Positions 33,515 through 50,239 are shown, counted from the first letter of the stretch. The stretch is 64,000 nucleotides of DNA from an uncultured Pseudomonadota bacterium (GCA_903885375.1 CAISIK010000027.1:1-64000), one strand, 5' to 3'. The notes: generated by a model from the sequence alone, not told the origin. Numbers and translations: made by a program.

Positions 33515-36100
33515 CTACCAGACGCCGTTGGTGATCTTGAGCGAGTACTCCTGGCAGGAGTAGGTCGTGCTCGTGCGGAACACGTGGATGTAGTAGTCGT
33601 TGCTCAGGTCGTCGCACTCGTTGTATTCGGAGGCGGCGGCGCAGGTGCGGTAGTCGCTCGGGATGGTGTGGGAGCCGTCGCCCACGTCCTCCTGGTAGAC
33701 CTCGTACTCCGAATAGCCGCTGCCCTCGGGGTCGGTGCCGGAGCCGGTGCTGCACTCCAGCTCGCTCGTGGTGCAGCCGCCCTCGTACACCACGAAAGCG
33801 TACTCGCTGCTGCCGGCCGTCAGCTCCACGTGGAAACGGTAGTTGTTGTAGGTGCCGCTGACCGTGTCGGAGGTGGTGATGGAGTACCAGTCGTCGTCGC
33901 TGGCGTCGAGGATGTTGCCGTTGAACTCGATGGTGGCGGTGCCGTCGGCCGCGAGGGTGCTCCAGTCCACCACGGGGTCGGCGCAGCTGTCGCCGTAGGC
34001 GGTGGTGTCCTCGTAGTCATCCACCGGGTCGCACACCTCGGTGCCGACGATGTTGGACACGGCGGAGGTGTTGCCCGAGGCGTCGGTGGCGGTGGCGTAG
34101 AACGAGTAGGAGAGGCCCGCGGTGAGGCCTTCGCTGAAGCTGAACGTGCCCGCGCCGTTGGCGGTGGCGGTGTCGGTCGTGACGCCCGAGCTGCTGGAGA
34201 TGTACAGCGTGACGTCGGCGAAGGGCTCCGTGGAGCCGCTCACGGTGGCGCTCGTTTCGTTCCGGTACGGGTCGACCGAGTTCAGGATCGGCGCGTCGGG
34301 CGCGGTGTAGTCGCCGACCAGCGCGGAGTCGGTGCCGGAGCCGCTGGTGGCCGTGCCATCGCTGGCGGTCACGGTGCAGGCCCAGGTCTCGCCATCGCTT
34401 GTGTAGGAGGACGCCACGGTGTTGCTGGTGACGGCCGAAACCACGCCGTTCACGGTCCACGCGTAGGTGTAGGTGATGGCATCGCCGTCATCGTCGGTGC
34501 TGGCGCCGGTCACGGTGCAGGTGAGGGTGTCGTCGTCTTCCGGATAGTTCGGCGTGACATCCACCGAGGGCGCCGTGGGGGTGCTGTTCTGGATCGTGCG
34601 CGTGCCGGAGATCACGGAGGCGCCGAGGTCGTAGCCGTCCCACGGGAAGATCTCGACGGTGATGTCGTCGCCCTTCACGAAGTACGTGCCCGCGAGGGTG
34701 GGGTCGGTGGCGCCCGCGATGGCGGCCCCGTTGAGGTACCACTGGTAGGTCTCGCCCTCGGCATCGCCGTCGGGGTCGGAGTAGCCGGTGGCGTTCGCGG
34801 TGAGCGTGTCGTTGGTGTAGGCCGTGGCGGGCGTGATCGTGGCGCTGGTGAGCGAGGGCGGGCCGTTGCCGATCGTGGCGCTGTCGGTGCCGGCGGGGCC
34901 GTCGGAGGCGCCGTCGTTCGGCACCACGTACACGGTCCAAATGTCGCCGCGGGAGGTGGCGCTCGCCGGCAGGGGGTTGCTGGTCCGGCCCGAGTCCACG
35001 CCGTTGAGGTACCAGAAGTAGCTGTAGGTGATGGCGTCGCCATCGGCATCGTAGCTGGGGGTCACGACGGAGACGGCGAGCGGATCGCCCGAGCCCGCGG
35101 GGTCGGGGGTGATGGCCACCGTGGGGGCTTCGGGAGGCTCGTTGATGTAGAGCGTGGCGTAGTCGACCGCGGTGATGCCGTCGGTGTCGGTGGCGGTCAC
35201 GGTGATGGTGTGGACACCGTGGCTGAGCGCGTCGTAGGTGAAGTCGGCGGTGCCATCGCTGCCGGCGCCGCGGGTGGAGAAGATGCCGTCGATGTCGCTC
35301 TCCCACACGAGCCCCACGGCATCGGGGGTGTCCTCGGCGTCGCCCACCGTGGCCTCGAAGTACACGACCTCGCCGATGTTGGCGCGGTCGCCCGACTTCG
35401 GCGCGACGAGGGTGAGGGTGGGACGGGAGCCGGCGGCCACCTGCACGGTGGTGGTGTCGGAGCCGGTGCGGCCCGTGGTGTCGGTGACGGTGAGGGTGAG
35501 CTGGTGCTCGCCTTCGCTCAGTGTGGCGGTGCCGGTGGTCTTTCCATCGCTCGACGGGCTCGACGAGAAGGGCAGCGCGCCATCCCTCGACGAAACCCAG
35601 GCCACCGTGAGCTGCTCGGGAAGGTCCTCGCCGTCGGACACCGCGCCCTCGAACAACGTGAGCTGGTTGGAGAAGTACTCGCCGCCGAACTCGGGCGTGA
35701 CGATCTCGGCGATGGGCGCGTCGTTCTTCTGCACGGTGACGTGCACGGTGCCGACCGCCGATTCGCCGTCGGGATTGATCGCGGTGAGCGTGACGGTGGC
35801 ATCGCCGCGGCTGAACACGGTGGCGCATTCGGAAACGCCGTTGGTGTCGAACACGGCGCCTTCGCAGACCGTGCCGCCGTTGATGGCCCAGGTGGCGCTG
35901 ATCGAGGTCAGCGACGTTTCGAAGTTCTCATCGACCACGCGGCCGCGCATGTTGACGGCCACGCCCTCGTTGAGCGAGGCCCCATCGGCCGGCGACTCGA
36001 TCGCCACCACCGGCGGCTTCGTGAATTTGGTGACGCCGTTGGTGTTCTCACACCCAGCGAGGACGAGGACGGTGCTGAGCACGAGGAGGGCGGGTCGGAT
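33515..36100 (-). CDS. Large Ig-like/PKD-type repeat lipoprotein, possible ATC start
   Basis: IRPALLVLSTVLVLAGCENTNG followed by many repeated beta-sandwich-like units (e.g. DGDAITYTYAWTVNGVV, DPDGDAEGETYQWYLNGA). Track start is GTG at 36082. Confidence 0.75.
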   Translation of the reverse strand: MRPALLVLSTVLVLAGCENTNGVTKFTKPPVVAIESPADGASLNEGVAVNMRGRVVDENFETSLTSISATWAINGGTVCEGAVFDTNGVSECATVFSRGDATVTLTAINPDGESAVGTVHVTVQKNDAPIAEIVTPEFGGEYFSNQLTLFEGAVSDGEDLPEQLTVAWVSSRDGALPFSSSPSSDGKTTGTATLSEGEHQLTLTVTDTTGRTGSDTTTVQVAAGSRPTLTLVAPKSGDRANIGEVVYFEATVGDAEDTPDAVGLVWESDIDGIFSTRGAGSDGTADFTYDALSHGVHTITVTATDTDGITAVDYATLYINEPPEAPTVAITPDPAGSGDPLAVSVVTPSYDADGDAITYSYFWYLNGVDSGRTSNPLPASATSRGDIWTVYVVPNDGASDGPAGTDSATIGNGPPSLTSATITPATAYTNDTLTANATGYSDPDGDAEGETYQWYLNGAAIAGATDPTLAGTYFVKGDDITVEIFPWDGYDLGASVISGTRTIQNSTPTAPSVDVTPNYPEDDDTLTCTVTGASTDDDGDAITYTYAWTVNGVVSAVTSNTVASSYTSDGETWACTVTASDGTATSGSGTDSALVGDYTAPDAPILNSVDPYRNETSATVSGSTEPFADVTLYISSSSGVTTDTATANGAGTFSFSEGLTAGLSYSFYATATDASGNTSAVSNIVGTEVCDPVDDYEDTTAYGDSCADPVVDWSTLAADGTATIEFNGNILDASDDDWYSITTSDTVSGTYNNYRFHVELTAGSSEYAFVVYEGGCTTSELECSTGSGTDPEGSGYSEYEVYQEDVGDGSHTIPSDYRTCAAASEYNECDDLSNDYYIHVFRTSTTYSCQEYSLKITNGVW

Positions 36101-36212: not shown

Positions 36213-36437
36213 TCAGCCGCCCTCGTCGCCTACCGCTTCCACCGGGCAGCTCTCCAGCGCGAAGCGGAAGAGGTCGAACTCCGCCGGAACGTGGGCGCGT
36301 ACGTAGGCCTTGCGCGCCTCGTCCCGCCCGAAGATCTCGGGCGAGATGTCGGTGCAGGTGTCGCAAGAAACGCAGGTGAGGTCCACGAACCAGGGGCCCG
36401 GGGCATTGCGGGGGTGTCGGCGGGAAGGGTCCGGCAT
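36213..36437 (-). CDS. Single-cluster [4Fe-4S] ferredoxin
   Basis: LTCVSCDTCTDISPEIFGRDE...ALESCPVEAVGDE. Confidence 0.8.
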   Translation of the reverse strand: MPDPSRRHPRNAPGPWFVDLTCVSCDTCTDISPEIFGRDEARKAYVRAHVPAEFDLFRFALESCPVEAVGDEGG

Positions 36438-36439
36438 GT

Positions 36440-37525
36440 TCAGCCTCGGTGGCCATGAACGACGCGGGCGCTCTCGCGGAGGTCGGGGCCGGTCACGGTG
36501 CCGGCTCCTTCGGTTCGCAGACCGTGGTCGTCGGGTTGTTCATCACTGCGCTGCCCACGGCGGGCGGCGATTCGTTCGAGGAGGGCCGGCTCGGGCTCGC
36601 GGCGGAGCACCTTCCGGATGATGGCCTCCGGGTTTCCGGCCACGGGGAAGAGCTCGGCGGGGTCGTAGTGGTAGCCCATCGAGTAGAGCCCGGCGCAGAC
36701 CGGATCGAGCGCGCAGGCATCGCACGCGGGTGCCTTGCCGTGGAGGAACTGCTTCTGGAGGACGAAGCCCTTCTTGTCGAGGAAGCGGATGCAGCGCTCC
36801 TCCTCCTTCACGATCTTGCGGGTTTCCGTCGAACTTTCGGCGTACTCGGGCATGTAGCAGAGGGGCACGCGCTCGGCGCGGAAGGTGCGGCCCACCTGGG
36901 TCAGAAAGCGCATGGCCCGGCGCAGCGAGAGCTCGAACTCGCCGAGGCGCGGGATCACGTCCGGGTTGCGCTCCGCCCGGTTCATGTTCGGGTCCATGTT
37001 GTTCCACACGAAGTGGCGCACGTGCGGGTGCCGGCCCACCACCCAGCGCACCGTCTCGTCGAGGTGGTCGCTGTTGTAGGCGTTGATGACGGTGTTGATG
37101 TCGGCGGTGATGCCGAGGGTGCCCACGTGGCCGAGCGCGCTGTCGATGTGGTGGTGGCTCCCCGGCGTCTGCGTGAGGAAGTCGTGCACCGCCTCGCGGC
37201 TGGAATGGAGGCTCAGGTGCACGTGGGTGAGCCCGCTCTCCACCAGCTCACGGAGGAAGGGCAGCTCAGAAATCCGCTGACCGTTCGTGATCATGCGGAT
37301 GAACAGCCCTTTGCTGTGGGCGTACTGCACGGCCGGCAGGAGCAACGGGGCGATGGTGGGCTCGCCGCCGGTGAGGATGATGCCGTCGTAGCCGCGGGCC
37401 ACGAGATCATCGATGGAGTCGCGCATCTCCTGGTCGCTCAGGCTCACCCCGCTGGGCGGGTTGCTGCAGAAGCGGCACGCCTGCTTGCATTCGCGGGTGA
37501 GCTGGAGGTAGCCGAGGTTCGCCAT
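36440..37525 (-). CDS. Radical SAM protein B
   Basis: LTRECKQACRFCSNPPSG (CX3CX2C); GIILTGGEPTIAP; C-term CDACALDPVCAG; start overlaps upstream stop (ATGA). Confidence 0.88.
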   Translation of the reverse strand: MANLGYLQLTRECKQACRFCSNPPSGVSLSDQEMRDSIDDLVARGYDGIILTGGEPTIAPLLLPAVQYAHSKGLFIRMITNGQRISELPFLRELVESGLTHVHLSLHSSREAVHDFLTQTPGSHHHIDSALGHVGTLGITADINTVINAYNSDHLDETVRWVVGRHPHVRHFVWNNMDPNMNRAERNPDVIPRLGEFELSLRRAMRFLTQVGRTFRAERVPLCYMPEYAESSTETRKIVKEEERCIRFLDKKGFVLQKQFLHGKAPACDACALDPVCAGLYSMGYHYDPAELFPVAGNPEAIIRKVLRREPEPALLERIAARRGQRSDEQPDDHGLRTEGAGTVTGPDLRESARVVHGHRG

Positions 37526-39246
37526 CAGCTCCGCCGGCCGGCTTCGGTGTCGATGAAGGGGACGGGGCGGTTGGCCGGCACCGGAATGCGGAAGGGGGGC
37601 GCCTGGGGCGCGGCCCCCGCGGCGAGGCGCGGGTCGGGATCGTCGGCGGGCCAGGCGAGGAGCTGCGCGGCGGCATCGATGGCCCACTCGCCGGTCAGCG
37701 GCTGGAGCTGCACGAAGCCGTGCGCCCGGAGGGACTGCAGATGCTGGCCCCGGCAGGAGCCGGCAACGGGGCAGGCGGAGCAGCGAAGGGAACGCGCGTA
37801 GTAGTGCTCGCCCACGTACTCATCCACGAACGCGTCGATCTGCCAGCGGCCATCGGCGTGGAAGAGCTGCGTGTCGAGGCGACGGGGGGCGCGTTCGAGC
37901 CGGGTTCCCGGCGCGAGGCAGGCGGGCAGGTTCTCCACCCGCACCCGGCGACCGAGCGCGAGGAAGAAGGCGCGCCAGTCGGGGTCGAGCGCCAGTGATT
38001 CGCTGGCCTTCGGCCGCGTGGGCGCGTGGATCACGCAGCGGTCATCGAGCCGATCGGGGGACTGGAGGAGCGCCTCCGCGAAGGTGCGGTCGAGACGGAG
38101 CTCCACCTCCACGCCGAGCGCCAGCGCGGCGTCGAGCTCCTCGAACCCTTCGACGATCACCCGCGAACCGGGCGGGAGCAGGGTGCCGGCGGGGACGGCG
38201 CTGGCGGGAATCCGCAGCGGCCCGATGGGCGCGGGCGGGAGCGCGGCCACGCCGAGCCAGCGCACGCCGGCCGGGGCGTGCGCCGCCAGCGCGAACTCCG
38301 CGCCGATCGCGAACTCGTCGAAGCCGCCTGCGTGCGCGCGGGCCACGTGCCGGTCGAGCGTGGAGCAGAAGGGCTCGATGAAGCAGTGGGGGCAGCGCTT
38401 GGCGTCGCGGCAGTCGATGGGCGTGCCCTCATCGAGGTAGCGGCGGAACTGCACGCGGCGGCCGCCCACCTCGTCGAGCATCTTGTGCGGGTCCTGGATG
38501 AGCTCCTCGAGCCCTTCGAGGTGCTGGACGGGAAAGCGGTTGGTCCAGATGTGGAAACCCGGCACCCGCGCGTAGCGGAAGACGCGCCGCAGCGCGTCGG
38601 CGTGGGCATCGACGTCGTAGAAGAGCTCGGCGCGGTGCTCGAACGCCTCGCCCTGTGGGATCACATGCAGGAGGTCGAACTCCCGGACGCCCACCCGCGA
38701 GCAGAGCGCCACGATGGCCTCGAGGTGCTCCACGTTCTGCTTGTTGATGCAAACGTCGACGTTCACGATCACCCGGCCATCCCGCACCGCGCGGATCATG
38801 GCGCGCATGAGGTTCTCGAACCCGTTCTTCGTCTTCGTGAGGTGGTCGTGCAGCTCGGGGGTGTGCCCGTGGAGCGAGAAGGTGATCTCGTCGAGCCCGG
38901 CGGCCACCGCGCGCAGGAAGAAGGCCCGGTCGGCGAGCTTCTGCCCGTTGGTGACGGTCTGCACCCATCGGTAGCCCTGCGCCTTCGCGTAGGCGACGAC
39001 GTCGTGAAAGCGGGGGTGGATCGTGGCCTCGCCGCCGCTCACCACGAGCCGGCTCGCGTGCTTCTCCTCGCGACCCCGGCGCACCTCCACGCAGATGTCC
39101 TCGAAGCTCATGAAGCGGCCGTCCTGGGCTTCGGCGTCGAGGCAGAAGATGCACTTGCTGTTGCACGCGGCCGTGAGCCGCACCCAGTGCTTGCTCTCGT
39201 TGGCGACCCCTTCGTGGTCGAGCGTGATGGCCTGCGGCGCTTGCAT
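37525..39246 (-). CDS. Radical SAM protein A (long, SPASM-like C-terminus)
   Basis: LTAACNSKCIFCLDAEA; LVVSGGEATIHPRF; CPHCFIEPFC and CSACPVAGSC. Confidence 0.85.
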   Translation of the reverse strand: MQAPQAITLDHEGVANESKHWVRLTAACNSKCIFCLDAEAQDGRFMSFEDICVEVRRGREEKHASRLVVSGGEATIHPRFHDVVAYAKAQGYRWVQTVTNGQKLADRAFFLRAVAAGLDEITFSLHGHTPELHDHLTKTKNGFENLMRAMIRAVRDGRVIVNVDVCINKQNVEHLEAIVALCSRVGVREFDLLHVIPQGEAFEHRAELFYDVDAHADALRRVFRYARVPGFHIWTNRFPVQHLEGLEELIQDPHKMLDEVGGRRVQFRRYLDEGTPIDCRDAKRCPHCFIEPFCSTLDRHVARAHAGGFDEFAIGAEFALAAHAPAGVRWLGVAALPPAPIGPLRIPASAVPAGTLLPPGSRVIVEGFEELDAALALGVEVELRLDRTFAEALLQSPDRLDDRCVIHAPTRPKASESLALDPDWRAFFLALGRRVRVENLPACLAPGTRLERAPRRLDTQLFHADGRWQIDAFVDEYVGEHYYARSLRCSACPVAGSCRGQHLQSLRAHGFVQLQPLTGEWAIDAAAQLLAWPADDPDPRLAAGAAPQAPPFRIPVPANRPVPFIDTEAGRRS

Positions 39247-39286
39247 CGCTCGCAAGGTAGCATGCGGCCGACCCGGGTCGCGCGGC

Positions 39287-40432
39287 ATGGCTCCAGCATA
39301 TCCCCCTTCGCCCTGCACCTGGCCCGCGGGGCGGGATGACATCGGCCCCTGGCGGGCCCGCCAGCTTCGCCTCGTGGCACGCCGCCTGTTCACCGGCCCC
39401 CACGACCTCCCGCCGTGGGCGGCGGGCGCCTGGGCCTCCATCCGCGAGCCGCTGGCCGCCGTGATGGGGCAGCACACGGGTGTTTTCCTGTCGGCGCTGG
39501 CGCTCCCCACCGTGGGCGCGCCGCTCGCCGCGGGCGACCTCCTCTCCGCCCTGCCGCACCTGCTCCTCGAGCTGGCCCGCCGCGGCGTGATCGGCGAGCA
39601 GGGCCTCTGGTGGGGGGCGCCGGTCTCGCGGCTCGTGAGCCCGGCGCTCGGCGCCGACCGGCGCTTCAACCCGCCGCTCGTGGGCGTGCTGTTCGAGTCC
39701 GGCATCGTCACCCTGCGGCCCACGGAGGAGTGGCGGCTCGCGCCCGAGGCCGTGCCCACGGCGTGGCCGCTCGAACATGGCGGGTGGCTGCTCGGCGCCG
39801 ACACCAACCCGCTCGCCATGAACGAGGCCCACCCCGACAAGTCGGGCAACGCGCTCTCGTTCGGGAGCGTCCCGGTGGCGGAGTGGCTGTCCGCCCTCAA
39901 CACGGCCCGCGGGCGCCTCCACGCGTTCATCCCCGAGCTGGCGCGGGAGCATGCGAACGTGCTCGTGGGCATCGTTCCCGTGGGGCAGGACGACCAGATG
40001 AGCCTGTCGGCGTCGTACCAGGAGGCGCCCGGCCTGGCCTACCTCTCGCTGCACCCCGATTCGCTCACCATGAGCGAGGCCCTCATCCACGAAACCCAGC
40101 ACTCCAAGCTCAACCTCGTGGCCTGGACCGACGCCGTTCTCGAGAACCACGGCGAGCTCTACCGCAGCCCGGTGCGGCCCGACCCGCGGCCGCTTTGGGG
40201 GGTCATGCTCGCCGTGCACGCATTCCTCCCGGTGGCGCGCCTCCACCGCGCGCTCCTCGATGCCAGCGCGCCGGAGGCCAACCCCCGGCGCTACGTCGAG
40301 GTGTGCCGGGTGAACCACGAGGGCATGGAGGTGCTCCGCGCGGCCGCCCGCCCCACCCCCGCCGGCGCCGCCATCCTCGCCGGCATGGATGCGCTGGAGC
40401 GCGCCCTGTGGGAAGTGAGCGGCGCGGCCTGA
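39287..40432 (+). CDS. HEXXH-motif putative peptide-modification protein (TIGR04267-like, aKG-HExxH peptide beta-hydroxylase-like)
   Basis: MSEALIHETQHSKLNLVAWTDAVLENHGELYRSPVRPDPRPLWGVMLAVHAFLPVARLHRAL. Confidence 0.75.
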   Translation: MAPAYPPSPCTWPAGRDDIGPWRARQLRLVARRLFTGPHDLPPWAAGAWASIREPLAAVMGQHTGVFLSALALPTVGAPLAAGDLLSALPHLLLELARRGVIGEQGLWWGAPVSRLVSPALGADRRFNPPLVGVLFESGIVTLRPTEEWRLAPEAVPTAWPLEHGGWLLGADTNPLAMNEAHPDKSGNALSFGSVPVAEWLSALNTARGRLHAFIPELAREHANVLVGIVPVGQDDQMSLSASYQEAPGLAYLSLHPDSLTMSEALIHETQHSKLNLVAWTDAVLENHGELYRSPVRPDPRPLWGVMLAVHAFLPVARLHRALLDASAPEANPRRYVEVCRVNHEGMEVLRAAARPTPAGAAILAGMDALERALWEVSGAA

Positions 40433-43066: not shown

Positions 43067-44134
43067 TCAGTCGGTCGTCTGGACCACGAGGCCGAGCCGG
43101 TCGCACTCTCGCGTGAGCGCGCCGAGCTCGGCCTCGAGCGGTCGACCGGTGAAGGTGATGGTGCGGGCGCCCTCGCCGTGGAGTTTTACGAGGCGCTGGC
43201 GGAGCGTGCGCGAGTTGTCGGTGTCGGCGACGTCGAGGACAGCGTGCGCGGCGCCTGGCGGCTGCGGGCCCGCCGGACGCAGCTCCTCGGTGCCCCAGCG
43301 CGCCACGTAGGCGGCGTCCACGCCGGGACAGATGGGGCGCAACGCGCAGTGGGTGCACGGCGGCGGCCAGAGGGGAGCCGCCGCCGCCTCCACCGCGATC
43401 GCCGAGTAGCGGTCGGGCTGGGCCACGTCGCGGCGGTCGCCGAGGAGCGCGAGCAGGTCGGGCGCCACGCAGGGGGGGAGCCCCACCACGTCGAGCTCCA
43501 CGCCCTCGGCCCGCGCGCGCTCGGCGGCGGCGCGGATCGGCTCGGCGAGCAGCTCCCAGCGCGGCAGGAGCATGCGGGCCTCCCCCACCGCGGCGCCCAC
43601 CTCCCGCCCCACGTGGGCGCGCACCGACCGCGCGCCCAGCGCCCCGGCCACGCCCACCGTCTCCGCGAGGAGCGGCGCCCCCGTGCGGGTGAGCACGGTG
43701 TTCACCCGCAGGCCGAGGCCGGCGGCCACGCTGCGTCGGGCTGAAGCCACCGCCCGCTTGAAGCTGCCGGGCGTGCGGGTGAGCCAGTCGTGCACCGCCG
43801 CCGTGGGCGCGTGCAACGCAAGGGCCACATCCGTGAGGCCCGCCGCCCGTAGGGCCCCCGCCGCACCCGCCGCGGCGAGCACGGACCCGTTGGTCTGCAG
43901 GGCGATGCGTTGGAAACCCGCCTGGCGCGCGAGCCCGAGCAGATCGAGCAGGTCGCTCCGCAGGGTGATCTCCCCGCCGGCGAGCACGACGCCCTCACGG
44001 TGCGGCAGGCGGGCGAGCGCCGCCGCCAGCTCGGGCAGGCTCGCTTCGCCATGCGCCGCGCGGAGCGCCTCCTGGTCGCAGAAGCGGCAGCCCTGGTTGC
44101 AACGGAAGCCCGTCCGGAGGTCGGTCCAGCGCAT
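43067..44134 (-). CDS. Radical SAM protein C
   Basis: FRCNQGCRFCDQEA; VVLAGGEITLRSD; LALHAPTAAVHDWLTRTPGSFKRA; CTHCALRPICPG. Confidence 0.85.
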   Translation of the reverse strand: MRWTDLRTGFRCNQGCRFCDQEALRAAHGEASLPELAAALARLPHREGVVLAGGEITLRSDLLDLLGLARQAGFQRIALQTNGSVLAAAGAAGALRAAGLTDVALALHAPTAAVHDWLTRTPGSFKRAVASARRSVAAGLGLRVNTVLTRTGAPLLAETVGVAGALGARSVRAHVGREVGAAVGEARMLLPRWELLAEPIRAAAERARAEGVELDVVGLPPCVAPDLLALLGDRRDVAQPDRYSAIAVEAAAAPLWPPPCTHCALRPICPGVDAAYVARWGTEELRPAGPQPPGAAHAVLDVADTDNSRTLRQRLVKLHGEGARTITFTGRPLEAELGALTRECDRLGLVVQTTD

Positions 44135-44137
44135 CGG

Positions 44138-45193
44138 CTACTTGATGGCGCTCAGCTCGGCGTCCCCGTGGATGGGGAGGTAGTTCTTCCACACCCCCTC
44201 GCAGACGTTACCGTACCGGCACCCCTCGCACCGGGCTTGCGGCTGCGTCTTCAGGTCGTACCGCTTGCGGTCCTGCCAGTTGAAGCGCGCGCGCCCGTCT
44301 TCGATCTGCGCGATGCCGTCGGGGAAGCCGTCGGCGGTGAGCGTCTTGATCGAGCAGTCGGTGTCCAGGTCGCGGAACTCGCCGATGTACTTGCGGGCGA
44401 GCGCCTTGTTGCCGAGCAGCTCGGGGGGCAGCACGCAGAGCGGGAAGCTGCCCAGCGTGAACGTGCGCTTGTAGTGTAGCTCGTTGAGCAGCACCGCCTT
44501 GAGGACGTAGGGCACGACATCGGTGAGGCGTGGCACGAGGCTCGTTTCTTCCTCGGCGTAGCCCTCGGAGCGCACGAAGTTCGCCCGCACGTCGTCGAGG
44601 CCCAGCTCGAAGAAGAAGCGGAGGATGTTCGGGAGGTAGCGGTAGTTCCAGGCGTTCACCACCACGTTTACCGACACGTTGTCGCGCATGTGCCCCTCCG
44701 CCTTCTTCTGGAGGAGGTACTGGAGGCCGGACTTCTTCTTCTCGAAGTTGCCGGGTACGCGGGTGAGCGCATCCTCCAGCCGCGGGGTGTGGCCGTGCAT
44801 CGAGATCGTCACGCGGGTGAGCCCGGCGTCGATGATGCGGTCCACGAAGTCGTGGCGGAAGAACTTGGTGCCGTTCGTAGCGAGCGCGATCCGGGTGTAG
44901 CCGAGGTCGCGGGCGAGGGTGACCGCCTGGATGATCCACGGGTAGGTGGTGGGCTCGCCGCCCAGAAAGCCGAGCGAGCGCGTGCCGTTGGCGTACCAGC
45001 GGCGGATTTCCGCCTCCATCTCCGGCCAGGGCATGTACCGGCGCATCTCGGTAGCCGGCAACCCATCGAGGCAGAAGACACACTTGTTGTTGCAGATCTT
45101 CCCGACGTTGATCTCGACGTTGCGCCGCGTGTCACGCCAGAGGTCGCTCCCGCCTTCGGTCAGCGGAGCGGGAGCGGGGCTGACCTCGTTCAA
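44138..45193 (-). CDS. Radical SAM protein D
   Basis: VGKICNNKCVFCLDG; LGFLGGEPTTYP; ISMHGHTPRLEDALTRVPGNFEKK; CEGCRYGNVCEG. TTG start overlapping upstream stop (TTGA). Confidence 0.87.
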   Translation of the reverse strand: MNEVSPAPAPLTEGGSDLWRDTRRNVEINVGKICNNKCVFCLDGLPATEMRRYMPWPEMEAEIRRWYANGTRSLGFLGGEPTTYPWIIQAVTLARDLGYTRIALATNGTKFFRHDFVDRIIDAGLTRVTISMHGHTPRLEDALTRVPGNFEKKKSGLQYLLQKKAEGHMRDNVSVNVVVNAWNYRYLPNILRFFFELGLDDVRANFVRSEGYAEEETSLVPRLTDVVPYVLKAVLLNELHYKRTFTLGSFPLCVLPPELLGNKALARKYIGEFRDLDTDCSIKTLTADGFPDGIAQIEDGRARFNWQDRKRYDLKTQPQARCEGCRYGNVCEGVWKNYLPIHGDAELSAIK

Positions 45194-46146
45194 GTGGCCT
45201 CCATGGCGTGGAGTTCGCCGTGACCGTACAGTTCGACATACCGCGCGAAGACCCCGTGACACAAGCGATTCCAGCTACAGGACTCGCATACGGCCGGCTG
45301 GGTGCGCTTTCGGTCGGGCGCCCACGAGTAGATGCCCTCGAGCGAGACCCGGTCGGGGTGGCGGGTCCACTCGAAGGTCACGCGCGGGTTCCAATGGAGA
45401 TCGTTCGCGTACATGCGGGCCTCGCCGAGCACGCAGGCGGGGAGGCCGAAGAACCGCACGATGGAATTGCCCGCGGCCGCGAGGATCTTCGGCACCAGCG
45501 GGCGCACCTCGTCGAGCCGCAGGGTGAGCGCCTCGTAGGCCTGCTCGCCGGCGCCTTCGGGCGTGACGTTGGAGATCACGATCAGCTCGGCGCCCCGCGC
45601 GCTCGCGAGCCGCACCGTCTCCACGATGTGCTCGGCGTTCTCCCGCACGAGCACGGTGTTCACGAAGGTGCGGAAGCCGGGGAAGCTGCGGGCGTTGGCC
45701 ATGGCGGCCGAGAGCCGGTCGAAGCTGCCCTTGCGTCGCGTCTGGGCGTCGTGGACCTCGGCGGTGGGGCCGTGCAGCGAGAACAGCGCCTCGCTCAGCC
45801 AGGGCAGGGCGCGGGCGGCAAACGCGGGGTCGGCGAGCCGGGTGCCGATGGTGCCGATGCTCGTGCGCATGCCGAGCTTTCGGGCGAGCTGGAGGATTTC
45901 GACGAACTGGGGGTGGATCGTGGGCTCGCCGCCCGTGAAGTGCACCCCGTCGATGCCGCGCTCCGCCTGCTCGCGGAGCACCCGAGCCACCCGCCCGAAG
46001 GTGACGGGAAAGGCGGCGTAGTCGGCCATCCGGGTCTCTTCCGAGCAGAAGGTGCAGCGCTCCGGGCAGTGGTAGGTGATGTGGAACTCGAGCCGGCGCA
46101 TGGGCTGGCCGGAGACCGGGTCGATCCAGGGGGGGGGCTCCGTCAT
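45190..46146 (-). CDS. Radical SAM protein E
   Basis: ITYHCPERCTFCSEETR; VHFTGGEPTIHPQF; FSLHGPTAEVHDAQTRRKGSFDRL; CESCSWNRLCHG. Confidence 0.88.
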   Translation of the reverse strand: MTEPPPWIDPVSGQPMRRLEFHITYHCPERCTFCSEETRMADYAAFPVTFGRVARVLREQAERGIDGVHFTGGEPTIHPQFVEILQLARKLGMRTSIGTIGTRLADPAFAARALPWLSEALFSLHGPTAEVHDAQTRRKGSFDRLSAAMANARSFPGFRTFVNTVLVRENAEHIVETVRLASARGAELIVISNVTPEGAGEQAYEALTLRLDEVRPLVPKILAAAGNSIVRFFGLPACVLGEARMYANDLHWNPRVTFEWTRHPDRVSLEGIYSWAPDRKRTQPAVCESCSWNRLCHGVFARYVELYGHGELHAMEAT

Positions 46147-47147
46147 GCTTCCGCCAGCCGTTCGCGGCGCGCGAAGTAGGCGGGGTAGAGCCGGTTGCAC
46201 AGCCGGGTGAGGGCGGCATCGGCGGCGGCGGTGCTCTGCATCACGTGCTCGCCCAGGGTGTCGTGCAGGAAGCCGCCCGCCTCCTGGCCGGCGGCCACCA
46301 GCGCCTCGGCGGCTGGCGGGGCATCGAGGGTACCGAGGGCGAAGCGCTCGCGGAGGTGGTCGAGGTTGCCCGCGAGGATGAGGTTGTTCGCGTAGATTCG
46401 GCGGTCGCTGTCCACCACGAAGCCGGTGTTGTAGAAGGCGACGGGCGCCCGCACGAAGAGGTTGCGCAGGTAGAGGCGCTCGCCGGCCGCCCACGCGCGC
46501 TCGAAGGCGGCGGCGATGGCCGAGAAGGATTGGTTCAAGGCTTCGAGTTGTTCGGGGCGCCAGGGCAGGTAGTAGCCCGGGAGCAGGTTGAACCGGCGAA
46601 CGCCGAGCGAGCGCAGGTACGCGAAGTTGTCGGCGGCCCGCGCGGCCGTGCTCGGCGCGATGGTCTGGGTGACGACGAAGCGCGGCAGACCGAGGAGCCT
46701 CGGCAGGAGCGCCACCACCCGATCGTGCGAGGGCGACCCGCGGCGGAGCCCGTCGTGGTCGCGGGCCACGCCATCGAGGCTCAGCGTGAGTGTGACGCTC
46801 GGGTGGGCGTGCAGCCACGCGATCCAGTGCTCGTCGAGGTGGGTGCCGTTGGTGCTGAGGTACACGTTCACCTCGGACGGCGCGGCGTCCACCGCCGCCT
46901 TCACCACCTCGGGCACCAGCAGCGGCTCGCCGCCGAAGAGCTTGGCGTCTCCCCCGCCGTAACGTTCCACGAAGAGGGCGATGGCGCGCCGGGCGTCGTC
47001 GGCGCCGAGGTCGGGCTCACCGTCCTTCACCGTGGGGCAGTAGGCGCAGCGCAGGTCGCAACGGCGCGTGACCACGAGGATCAGCGCGTTGCGCCACCGT
47101 TCGGCGCGAACGCCGCTACCACTGGCCGTGACTGCCGTGGCTGCCAT
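46143..47147 (-). CDS. Radical SAM protein F
   Basis: VVTRRCDLRCAYCPTVKDGE; KLFGGEPLLVPEVVKAAV; YLSTNGTHLD; LSLDGVARDHDGLR. Likely ATG at 47147 lies inside the precursor repeat. Confidence 0.85.
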   Translation of the reverse strand: MAATAVTASGSGVRAERWRNALILVVTRRCDLRCAYCPTVKDGEPDLGADDARRAIALFVERYGGGDAKLFGGEPLLVPEVVKAAVDAAPSEVNVYLSTNGTHLDEHWIAWLHAHPSVTLTLSLDGVARDHDGLRRGSPSHDRVVALLPRLLGLPRFVVTQTIAPSTAARAADNFAYLRSLGVRRFNLLPGYYLPWRPEQLEALNQSFSAIAAAFERAWAAGERLYLRNLFVRAPVAFYNTGFVVDSDRRIYANNLILAGNLDHLRERFALGTLDAPPAAEALVAAGQEAGGFLHDTLGEHVMQSTAAADAALTRLCNRLYPAYFARRERLAEA

Positions 47148-47583
47148 GCGATCCGTGGCTGCCGTGGGAGCCGTGGGAGCCGTGGCTGCCGTGGGAGCCG
47201 TGGGAGCCGTGGCTGCCGTGTGATCCGTGGCTGCCATGCGATCCGTGGGAGCCGTGGGAGCCGTGGGAGCCGTGCGATCCGTGCGAGCCGTGCGAGCCGT
47301 GGCTGCAATGCTGCGCGAGGAGCACGGCCGTGCTGTCGGGCGCCGTGCCGCTCCGGTCGAGGAACGAGGGGTCGAGCTCCATCTCGCCCGCGGACGCCTG
47401 CAGGAGCAGGAGCGACTGGGCCACAGCGTCGGTCGGCTGGTTGGCCGCTTTGGCTTCCTGAGCCTGGAGGAGCTGGAAGGCCTCCCGCTTGAGCGTGGGG
47501 AACTCCGCCTCCTCGGCGGCCTTCACCCAGTCGGCTCCGGCTTTCTTCCCCGGGAACGGGGCCTTGGGATCGTCTTTGCTCAT
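47116..47583 (-). CDS. His-Xaa-Ser-type repeat precursor (HxsA-like RiPP precursor candidate)
   Basis: 155 aa; leader MSKDDPKAPFPGKKAGADWVKAAEEAEFPTLKREAF... then AQHC-(SHG)x20-QW; ATGA-coupled to the HxsB-like gene. Confidence 0.85.
   Translation of the reverse strand: MSKDDPKAPFPGKKAGADWVKAAEEAEFPTLKREAFQLLQAQEAKAANQPTDAVAQSLLLLQASAGEMELDPSFLDRSGTAPDSTAVLLAQHCSHGSHGSHGSHGSHGSHGSHGSHGSHGSHGSHGSHGSHGSHGSHGSHGSHGSHGSHGSHGQW
47125..47304 (-). repeat. 20 tandem 9-bp units encoding Ser-His-Gly
   Basis: Read directly: gccgtgact gccgtggct gccatgcga ... gccgtgcga gccgtggct on the + strand. Confidence 0.95.
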
Positions 47584-49100
47584 GCCATCACCTCGCCCGA
47601 AGGCGCGTAGGGAGTGGTGCCGGGCCGGGAACGCTGGATGGTCCAGCGGCGGAAGATGCGTTCGATGGAGCCGTCGGTGTCGTTGGCGAGGAGGTGGTAC
47701 AGGTACTGCTGCACCCCGTAGAACTCCTGGCACTTCCGGGAGAGCGGACGCTGCCCGAAGATGTCCCCGTCGAACATGTAGTTGTGCAGCGGCTGCACGC
47801 CGCACGTGGGCTTGTACACGCACGAGTGGCAGGCCGGCAACGAGTCCTGGATGGAGGCGACCGCGAGCGCGCGTACGGTGGGGTGCCGCAGCACCTCATC
47901 GAAGGTGGACGACTCCACGTGCCCCAGCTTGAAGAAGTCGTTGCCCATGTGGGCGGCCATGCGGCCTTCATCGTCGGTGTAGATCGCCCCGTCGAAGTTG
48001 TAGGCGAGCTGCGCGCTGCCGGAGCCGCAGGGCGAGCGGCAGTCGCTGTAGTTCGGGTCGTCAGGGGTGAGCATCTTCGTGAGGAAGATGGAGGCGAGCC
48101 GCTCCTGCACGAACACACCCTGCCGGTTCAGGTCGAGGATGTAGTCCAGCGTGGTGCGGTAGAACTCGAGGAACTCGGGCATCGTGTACCCGATCTGCTT
48201 CCACGTGTTCACCGCGAACCCGAAGGGGTTCAGGGGGCGAAGGTGCAGGCTGCGAATGCCGCGGTTCACGTACTCGTCGACGATCTCGCGCCCCCGGTCG
48301 AGCGAGTACCGGGTCGTCGTCATCAACGCATCCACGTGGAAGAGGTCGGGGTCGAAGCCCCGACGCACCCACTCGCCGTTGAAGCGGTTCATCCAGTGGG
48401 TGACGGTTTCCCAGGAGCTGGACTTCTCCATCCAGCCGCGGTTCTTGTCGTGGAGGTCCTGCGGGCCATCGAGCGAGGTGCATACCATCACGCCGCGGTC
48501 GAGCAGGTAGTTCATCTTCTCGTCGGTCATCAGCGTGAGGTTCGACACCAGCGAGAGGAGGAGCTCCCTGTTCTCGTAGCGGTTCTTCTCGAGCGCGTAG
48601 TCGCAGATGAACTGGATCACGGGGAAGTTGGCCGTGGGCTCGCCGCCCTGGAACTCGAAACCAAGCACGGGCGAGGGCGACCGGAACACGAAGTCCACCA
48701 CCTTCCGCGCGGTTTCGAGGGACATGTCGGTGTCCACCCGGTCCATGTCGGTGCGGCTGGCGTGGCAGTAGCGGCAGGCGTGGTTGCAGCGCAGCGTCGT
48801 GACGACGGCGTGCAGGTGCGGGCCATGCTGGAGGAAGGCCTTCTTCCGCCGCAGCTTGGCCGCGAGCGCATCGATGTCCATGTCGCGCTTGAGGAAGTAC
48901 CGGCGGCGGAGCGACTCGTAGAGCTCCTCCCCCGGCTGCACCTTGCCAGCGATGAACCGGCGGAAGTCCTCCGGGCTGAGGAAGAGGTGCTCGCCCACGT
49001 CGTTGGTGAGCAGCACACGACCATCCACCATGCCGTAGCGGAAGAAGCCGACGGACTCCTTGTCGAAGGTCGCAGGGTCGACGATGAGCGGGGTGTGCAT
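47580..49100 (-). CDS. HxsB-like radical SAM/SPASM maturase
   Basis: TLRCNHACRYCHASRTDMDRVDTDMSLETARKVVDFVFRSPSPVLGFEFQGGEPTANFPVIQF; TSLDGPQDLHDKNRG; SPCGSGSAQLAYNFDGAIYTDDEGRMAAHMGNDFFKLG; CHSCVYKPTCGV. Confidence 0.9.
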   Translation of the reverse strand: MHTPLIVDPATFDKESVGFFRYGMVDGRVLLTNDVGEHLFLSPEDFRRFIAGKVQPGEELYESLRRRYFLKRDMDIDALAAKLRRKKAFLQHGPHLHAVVTTLRCNHACRYCHASRTDMDRVDTDMSLETARKVVDFVFRSPSPVLGFEFQGGEPTANFPVIQFICDYALEKNRYENRELLLSLVSNLTLMTDEKMNYLLDRGVMVCTSLDGPQDLHDKNRGWMEKSSSWETVTHWMNRFNGEWVRRGFDPDLFHVDALMTTTRYSLDRGREIVDEYVNRGIRSLHLRPLNPFGFAVNTWKQIGYTMPEFLEFYRTTLDYILDLNRQGVFVQERLASIFLTKMLTPDDPNYSDCRSPCGSGSAQLAYNFDGAIYTDDEGRMAAHMGNDFFKLGHVESSTFDEVLRHPTVRALAVASIQDSLPACHSCVYKPTCGVQPLHNYMFDGDIFGQRPLSRKCQEFYGVQQYLYHLLANDTDGSIERIFRRWTIQRSRPGTTPYAPSGEVMA

Positions 49101-49330
49101 CACGCCTGCGCCCGCCGCGTGAGGATGGTCTCGAACAGGGCGTGATTGCCCAGCTCGTCGGCCAGCCGTTCCCGCACGCTCTCGCGCACCGGCACGATGT
49201 TCACCAGCCAGTCGGCCTCGGACTCGCCGAGCTCCGACGCCCCCAGCGCGGTGAAGCGGCTCGCCGCCCGGGCCACCGCATCGCCATCGTAGAGCGACTT
49301 GTGGAAGCGGAGCTGCAGCGGCTCAGCCAT
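49100..49330 (-). CDS. Small HxsD-like protein, second copy
   Basis: MAEPLQLRFHKSLYDGDAVARAASRFTALGASELGESEADWLVNIVP; 76 aa. Confidence 0.5.
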   Translation of the reverse strand: MAEPLQLRFHKSLYDGDAVARAASRFTALGASELGESEADWLVNIVPVRESVRERLADELGNHALFETILTRRAQA

Positions 49331-49748
49331 TGGTGGGCTTCTCCCACGGCACCGGGATGTCCAGATCGTCGCTGGCCATCTCTTCGGCATCGAGCTCGGC
49401 GAGCAGCTTGTCGATCGTGGAGGGGCCCTCGGCGGCGAAGAGGGCGCGCGCGAGGATGTACTCGCGGAGGCGGCCGTTGCTCTCGCCGATCTGCTTGCGG
49501 AGCGCCTGGTTCAACAGCTCGTTCGCGAACTGGCCCGACAGCGATTCGAGCTCCTCCGCCGAAGCCGGCCCGCGGGCGCGAAGGGCCACGACCACCTGAC
49601 GGTCGGCGGCGCGGTCGAGAAAGACGTAGGCTTTGTCGATGAACAGGTACGCGGCGCCCATGATGACGTCGAGCGCGTAGATCGACTCATCAATGGTGAA
49701 CCGGACGCGGCGTTCGGAGACTTCGGCCTGGAGGGCGTTGTCGCTCAT
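49323..49748 (-). CDS. HxsD-like protein
   Basis: VRFTIDESIYALDVIMGAAYLFIDKAYVFLDRAADRQVVVALRARGPASAEELESLSGQFANELLNQALRKQI. Confidence 0.7.
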   Translation of the reverse strand: MSDNALQAEVSERRVRFTIDESIYALDVIMGAAYLFIDKAYVFLDRAADRQVVVALRARGPASAEELESLSGQFANELLNQALRKQIGESNGRLREYILARALFAAEGPSTIDKLLAELDAEEMASDDLDIPVPWEKPTNG

Positions 49749-50239
49749 GCGGAGGGGGCTCCCGGCGCGAGGCGGTGGGCCGCCGCAGCCATGGCATCGG
49801 GGTGGGACCACACGCGGTCGGCGTGGGGGCTGAGCTCGCGGATGCGGGCGAGGTCGGAGTTTTCGTTCTCGGCGGCCACGGCGGCCAGCCGACGCAGCGC
49901 GCGGCCGAGGGACTCCTCCATCTCGGCGGTGCCATCGCCGCCATCCATCACGATGAAGTCGAGGAGCTCGGTAGAGGCCGGCCCTCGCGGGGCGCCGTTC
50001 CGAAGGCAGACATCCACGCGCACCTGGCGGCCGGCCGCGTGCGCCATCGTGAGGGTGACGGCGCCCTGGGCGGGCGGGTACACCCGCTGCAGGCGCCACC
50101 CGAGCCCCAATTCCGCGTCCGGACCGAGCGGATGGAAGAGGAACCCGGGATGGAGCGCCTCGGCGGCGAGGGCTGCGCCCGGCGCGGCGGCGGCGATTCC
50201 GAAGAGCGCGAACTGGACGAAGGAGCGCCGGGTGTTCAT
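49745..50239 (-). CDS. Tat-signal exported protein of unknown function, first gene of the Hxs-like operon
   Basis: MNTRRSFVQFALFGIAAAAPGAALAAEA; stop overlaps the start of the HxsD-like gene (ATGA). Confidence 0.7.
   Translation of the reverse strand: MNTRRSFVQFALFGIAAAAPGAALAAEALHPGFLFHPLGPDAELGLGWRLQRVYPPAQGAVTLTMAHAAGRQVRVDVCLRNGAPRGPASTELLDFIVMDGGDGTAEMEESLGRALRRLAAVAAENENSDLARIRELSPHADRVWSHPDAMAAAAHRLAPGAPSA

Follow-up and report, generated by a model that had tools for sequence, protein, structure and literature searches.

Two radical SAM proteins and a putative HExxH-type peptide hydroxylase co-inherited with a His-Xaa-Ser (HxsA4) system

Peptide hydroxylases of the alpha-ketoglutarate (2-oxoglutarate; alpha-KG)-dependent HExxH type show varied chemistry. 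According to PMC12636437, the fused enzyme ChlBH beta-hydroxylates Asp and His and requires a preinstalled cyclophane. Other members of the family act on Gln/Asn or cut the backbone, among them PflC and PosC, which hydroxylate Gln and break the peptide chain (PMC12636437). His-Xaa-Ser (Hxs) systems are known from genome annotation, through families for the precursor HxsA4 (NF038313), HxsB (TIGR03978), HxsC4 (NF038332) and HxsD (TIGR03976). Here we analyse a stretch of 64,000 nucleotides from an uncultured Pseudomonadota bacterium (GCA_903885375.1 CAISIK010000027.1:1-64000; hereafter the window), in which four genes at 36-40 kb lie close to a block of Hxs genes at 43-50 kb. The reading we favour, with moderate confidence, is that the 36-40 kb genes and the Hxs block make up a single extended HxsA4 pathway for a ribosomally synthesized and post-translationally modified peptide (RiPP), in which the HExxH protein tailors the SHG peptide, likeliest by His beta-hydroxylation.

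The four genes are intact and were placed and described correctly in the initial annotation. On the minus strand lie a small single-cluster [4Fe-4S] ferredoxin, a putative electron donor (36213..36437; Pfam Fer4_13, 48.5 bits, E 1.5e-12), radical S-adenosylmethionine (SAM) protein B (rB; 36440..37525; Pfam Radical_SAM, 69 bits) and radical SAM protein A (rA; 37525..39246; 573 amino acids, Pfam Radical_SAM); the Radical_SAM E-values of the two SAM proteins are 7e-19 and 2e-16. The divergent HExxH protein (HEXXH; 39287..40432) is encoded on the plus strand and is a candidate alpha-KG-HExxH-type peptide hydroxylase. rA and rB overlap by 1 nt (TGATG), 2 nt separate rB from the ferredoxin gene, and the start codons of rA and HEXXH are about 40 bp apart; no sigma-70-like promoter was found in this intergenic region. 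The nearest relative (locus L041) has an identical gene order with 77-94% protein identity. In the gene maps of relatives, the ferredoxin adjoins rB only within the window's own family.

Gene order in relatives shows that both sets of genes form one locus. Among 93 relatives HEXXH is found in 41, rA in 45, rB in 46 and HxsB in 46, mostly in the same genomes. The usual arrangement is a divergent HEXXH gene, then (r43-like)-rA-rB-(Tat-like gene)-HxsD-HxsB-HxsA4-r46-r45(-r44), where r43 to r46 are the radical SAM genes of the 43-50 kb block and Tat stands for twin-arginine translocation. rA/rB adjoin HxsD-HxsB in many relatives, and compact ones carry HEXXH, rA, rB, HxsD, HxsB and the SHG precursor as one continuous locus. 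The window and L041 hold the same genes in two blocks, parted only by ABC-F and DUF502 genes. The 36-40 kb genes had been labelled a second modification arm, which does not fit: rA and rB are near-universal partners of HxsB/HxsA4, and HEXXH is an accessory part.

The phylogenetic profile, covering 207 Myxococcota genomes (mostly metagenome-assembled genomes, MAGs, many of them fragmented), points in the same direction. HxsA4 occurs in 67 genomes, HEXXH in 54, rA in 68 (leaving out a weak match to a different radical SAM gene) and HxsB in 73. rA and HxsB occur together in 66 genomes, rA alone in 2 and HxsB alone in 7 (odds ratio, OR, 622), close to the OR of 536 for HxsA4 and HxsB. For HEXXH and HxsB the figures are 49 with both, 5 with HEXXH alone and 24 with HxsB alone (OR 53); HEXXH and rA give an OR of 42. 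The genomes with HEXXH and without HxsB are G053, a fragmented assembly in which rA and rB are present, and G102, G118, G151 and G211, which show only weak matches to P0004-like queries. In a HEXXH tree the proteins from Hxs genomes form one clade, except for extra Nannocystis copies that fall outside; three of the latter four genomes are included in the tree, and all of these lie outside the clade.

Proximity is less strict: HEXXH and rA lie at most 10 kb apart in 16 of the 47 genomes that have both, spread over seven families. Genomes assembled into few, long contigs, such as G152 (5 contigs) and G111 (20 contigs), keep HxsA4, HxsB, rA and HEXXH on different contigs or at a distance. That the scattered genes are all retained there speaks for a link of function and not of position alone. 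Independent occurrence of the two arms, suggested at the outset as the check on a common role, was thus not seen, and the co-occurrence and shared locus back the proposed action on the same SHG precursor. That the 36-40 kb and Hxs genes share a pathway is, in our judgement, very probable.

A second, more distant HxsB is present in several genomes (G004, G005, G027 and others; L093, L094); in L093 and L094 it adjoins a second HxsD and r43/r45-like genes. Loci of Myxococcota type also occur in MAG records titled Klebsiella pneumoniae (L082, L127, L155), and these titles are evidently mislabelled.

The initial annotation assigned HEXXH to TIGR04267, and both profile and fold agree. The protein scores 86.8 bits against TIGR04267.2 ('aKG-HExxH-type peptide beta-hydroxylase'; curated cut-off 40), and the quoted motif is present as HETQH (residues 268-272) and SPVRPDPRP...AVHAF (294-313). 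The HExxH motif and the downstream SPxRxDxRP block are invariant in 17 homologues. An AlphaFold2 model built from these homologues (predicted local distance difference test, pLDDT, 88.5) matches SjiH-Ni (22ob; Z 28.4, 359 residues, root-mean-square deviation 3.6) and the HExxH domain of ChlBHExxH (8s5f; Z 24.5, 295 residues, deviation 3.3), whereas the third-best match reaches a Z of only 7.6. A profile search of PDB sequences returns the same two proteins (E 1e-17 and 9e-13). In the profile alignment with ChlH, the HExxH helix and a P-R-D-RP block are common to both, with matching HE, H, P, R, D, RP and G positions. On the strength of model and profile, HEXXH is in all likelihood an Fe(II)/2-oxoglutarate-dependent hydroxylase. 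The loop DTNPLAMxEAHPDKxGN, strongly conserved in the subfamily and partly of low pLDDT, is perhaps a substrate loop. The His/Asp beta-hydroxylation named for the family in the initial annotation agrees with PMC12636437.

Both rA and rB combine a CxxxCxxC motif with auxiliary-cluster cysteines, as in radical SAM/SPASM proteins. In rA these are C28/32/35 plus the sets C279/285/288/294 and C443/489/492/498 (invariant in 24 homologues), in rB C13/17/20 plus C223 and C268/271/277 (invariant in 16). The AlphaFold2 model of rA (pLDDT 88.9) contains the radical SAM core, with the RiPP maturase SkfB among the best matches (Z 19.1). Neither protein passes a named NCBIfam cut-off: the best scores are 88 bits against 500 for rA and 84 bits against 268 for rB. 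A duplicated radical SAM module as the origin of the C-terminal half of rA was rejected, as profile comparison gives probabilities of 6.5% to rB and 2.5% to its own N-terminal half.

Taken together, the following order of events would fit. HxsB, the HxsC4-like r44 and other radical SAM proteins, helped by HxsD proteins, would modify the (SHG)n core, as the Hxs annotation suggests. rA and rB may act on that same core, judging from co-inheritance and synteny, with the adjacent ferredoxin probably supplying their electrons. HEXXH would then hydroxylate the same peptide, most likely after the radical SAM step as in ChlBH, if family chemistry is a guide. Its likeliest target is the Cbeta of the histidines in the SHG repeats. 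Given a shared pathway and a 2-oxoglutarate hydroxylase, we consider this site, by analogy, close to an even call.

Several observations weigh against this reading. The Fisher tests behind the co-occurrence yield tiny P-values but ignore shared ancestry. HEXXH is absent from 24 of the 73 HxsB genomes, the sampled f16 genomes among them, and HEXXH-lacking genomes whose precursors were read have the same (SHG)n core, with SW at its end. HEXXH is therefore dispensable for core processing, and the core sequence alone does not imply hydroxylation. Because family chemistry varies (Gln/Asn hydroxylation, cleavage), membership does not fix the residue that is modified. Finally, the literature searched yielded no modified product for any Hxs system.

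The same data separate core from optional parts. rA and rB accompany HxsB almost everywhere and are near-universal members of the HxsA4 pathway. HEXXH is an optional, lineage-dependent tailoring enzyme, as its absence from those 24 genomes despite the same core indicates. Control of HEXXH presence by the core sequence was rejected, since cores are alike in genomes with and without it.

Modification of the SHG peptide at another site is an unlikely alternative. HEXXH might act on the Cys/His at the start of the repeats, on the C-terminal Gln-Trp/Ser-Trp, or on a side chain made by a radical SAM enzyme. Both ends of the core are strongly conserved (mostly HC at the start, SW/QW at the C-terminus), and PflC/PosC, from the same family, hydroxylate Gln (PMC12636437). 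However, HEXXH occurs with QW and SW ends alike and with cores lacking Cys (for example L197, L199), so that none of these features tracks the enzyme. Improbable, too, is oxidative backbone cleavage, in which alpha-hydroxylation of the repeat Gly would split the SHG polymer into pieces with amidated C-termini, like PflC after its glutamine string. Gly is indeed found at every third core residue, and PflC/PosC do alpha-hydroxylate small residues, with cleavage that leaves amides (PMC12636437), but the cut made by PflC falls at a single recognised motif and not within repeats, and the same core is kept by lineages without HEXXH.

More remote still is the idea that the peptide modified by rA, rB and HEXXH is a separate precursor, encoded elsewhere, and that the three genes are neighbours of the Hxs genes by position alone. 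HEXXH is indeed far from the other genes in family f12 and in most of f14. Nonetheless, rA and HxsB co-occur almost exactly, and the neighbours checked around unlinked HEXXH genes are regulatory genes or unrelated enzymes: no radical SAM partner or precursor was recognised beside those examined, save a weak, partial rA-like match in L202. The initial annotation saw no second precursor, and neither do we: the few small open reading frames outside known genes give only marginal, inconsistent matches in relatives. With no convincingly conserved frame, and no space for one in compact loci such as the almost gap-free L054 (G068), which hold a single precursor, we rejected the idea that the 36-40 kb genes have one of their own. 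An equally remote reading of HEXXH as a zinc peptidase trimming the leader draws on its zincin-like motif and on the hydrolysis of leaderless peptide by PflC with several metals (PMC12636437), but the solved structures closest to it in fold are SjiH and the oxygenase ChlBHExxH, both well clear of all other matches, and lineages lacking HEXXH would require another protease.

The precursors vary in several respects. The number of SHx repeats ranges from 4 to about 50 (L050 (G030), L055 (G042), L077 (G027)), and L050 carries two precursor genes, one with 20 repeats and one with 43. Where r46 directly follows the HxsA4 gene, the precursor ends in Gln-Trp (27 distinct precursors); Ser-Trp is the ending in its absence (38 precursors, r46 following none of them), and there are 4 exceptions with Gln-Trp. 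This pattern suggests that r46 acts at the C-terminal Gln-Trp. In L160-L173 and L179, from HEXXH-lacking lineages, the leader contains a hydrophobic twin-arginine-like segment (for example KITRGQAAAIGSFLLMAG), as it does in L177 (KVTRRNFLSKTGWAVLAASG), hinting at precursor export; other leaders are without it.

On its family assignments the 43-50 kb block, all on the minus strand, is a His-Xaa-Ser system, with a putative HxsC4 identified by synteny. The precursor, HxsB and HxsD each pass their curated cut-offs: HxsA4 (47116..47583; a leader, then HC-(SHG)20-QW) with 122.6 bits (NF038313, cut-off 55), the radical SAM/SPASM maturase HxsB (47580..49103) with 510.9 bits (TIGR03978, cut-off 370) and HxsD (49323..49748) with 65.6 bits (TIGR03976, cut-off 50). 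An HxsD-like protein lies at 49100..49330 (NF038315, 54.8 bits, cut-off 41). At 49745..50239 follows a conserved protein with a Tat-like N-terminus (TIGR01409, 13.8 bits, below the cut-off of 16.7), placed by synteny; in compact relatives its gene sits between those for rB and HxsD. The radical SAM gene r44 (44138..45193) reaches 153 bits against NF038332 (cut-off 500), and the best HxsC score in the window is 83.7 (rB) against 267.9. We take r44 as the HxsC4 counterpart because the genes in its position beside HxsA4 in G205 and G212 exceed the HxsC4 cut-off with 627 and 631 bits. The other radical SAM genes are r43 (43067..44134; Radical_SAM 55.6 bits), similar to a gene adjoining rA in several relatives, r45 (45190..46146; 80 bits) and the PapB-like r46 (46143..47237; 53.9 bits; NF047865 79 bits, below the cut-off of 340). 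As called, r46 begins within the SHG-repeat stretch of the precursor gene, in a different frame, as also in L054, and its real start probably lies further downstream. Including HxsB, rA and rB, the window set holds seven radical SAM genes; among the matches listed, r43, r45, r46, rA and rB reach none of the family cut-offs.

Directly downstream of the ferredoxin gene (33515-36082, minus strand), in a stretch with unusual GC skew, lies a gene whose large product has an N-terminus like that of a lipoprotein and contains bacterial Ig-like domains (Big_13, Big_6).

Summarizing, the HxsA4-type system gains rA and rB as near-universal components and HEXXH as an optional one, co-inherited even when the genes are scattered. 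The enzyme families are already known; as far as the literature searched goes, what is new is the extension of the Hxs system by this combination of genes. It would also give alpha-KG-HExxH chemistry partners and a substrate undescribed for the family in the literature searched. More speculatively, and we regard this as rather doubtful, a Myxococcota-wide pathway with up to seven radical SAM proteins and the hydroxylase might produce a polyhistidine peptide that is repetitive, cross-linked and beta-hydroxylated and possibly binds metal; if true, such a product would be a new class of modified peptide. Culturable Nannocystis species carry both HxsA4 and HEXXH, which makes the product directly testable; one of them, Nannocystis exedens DSM 71, also has an rA homologue (L141).

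Compared with ChlBHExxH, as covered in PMC12636437, HEXXH shares the HExxH fold, the HExxH and SPxRxDxRP blocks and a radical SAM partner, but here the genes are separate, the precursor is different, the radical SAM partners are of other families and identity is about 15-16%. PflC/PosC and BpmH (PMC12636437, PMC12257519) are, like HEXXH, free-standing enzymes in RiPP pathways; their partners, however, include multinuclear non-haem iron-dependent oxidative (MNIO) enzymes rather than Hxs radical SAM proteins, and their substrates are Gln-rich or aromatic peptides. rA resembles SkfB and other RiPP radical SAM/SPASM maturases in its core and auxiliary-cluster cysteines, but it has an extra C-terminal half, in which a further set of Cys is conserved, and it passes no family cut-off. 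With known Hxs systems the window shares the precursor, HxsB and HxsD, with r44 syntenic to genes that pass for HxsC4; beyond these it adds r43, r45, r46, rA, rB, the putative HEXXH hydroxylase and the Tat-like protein.

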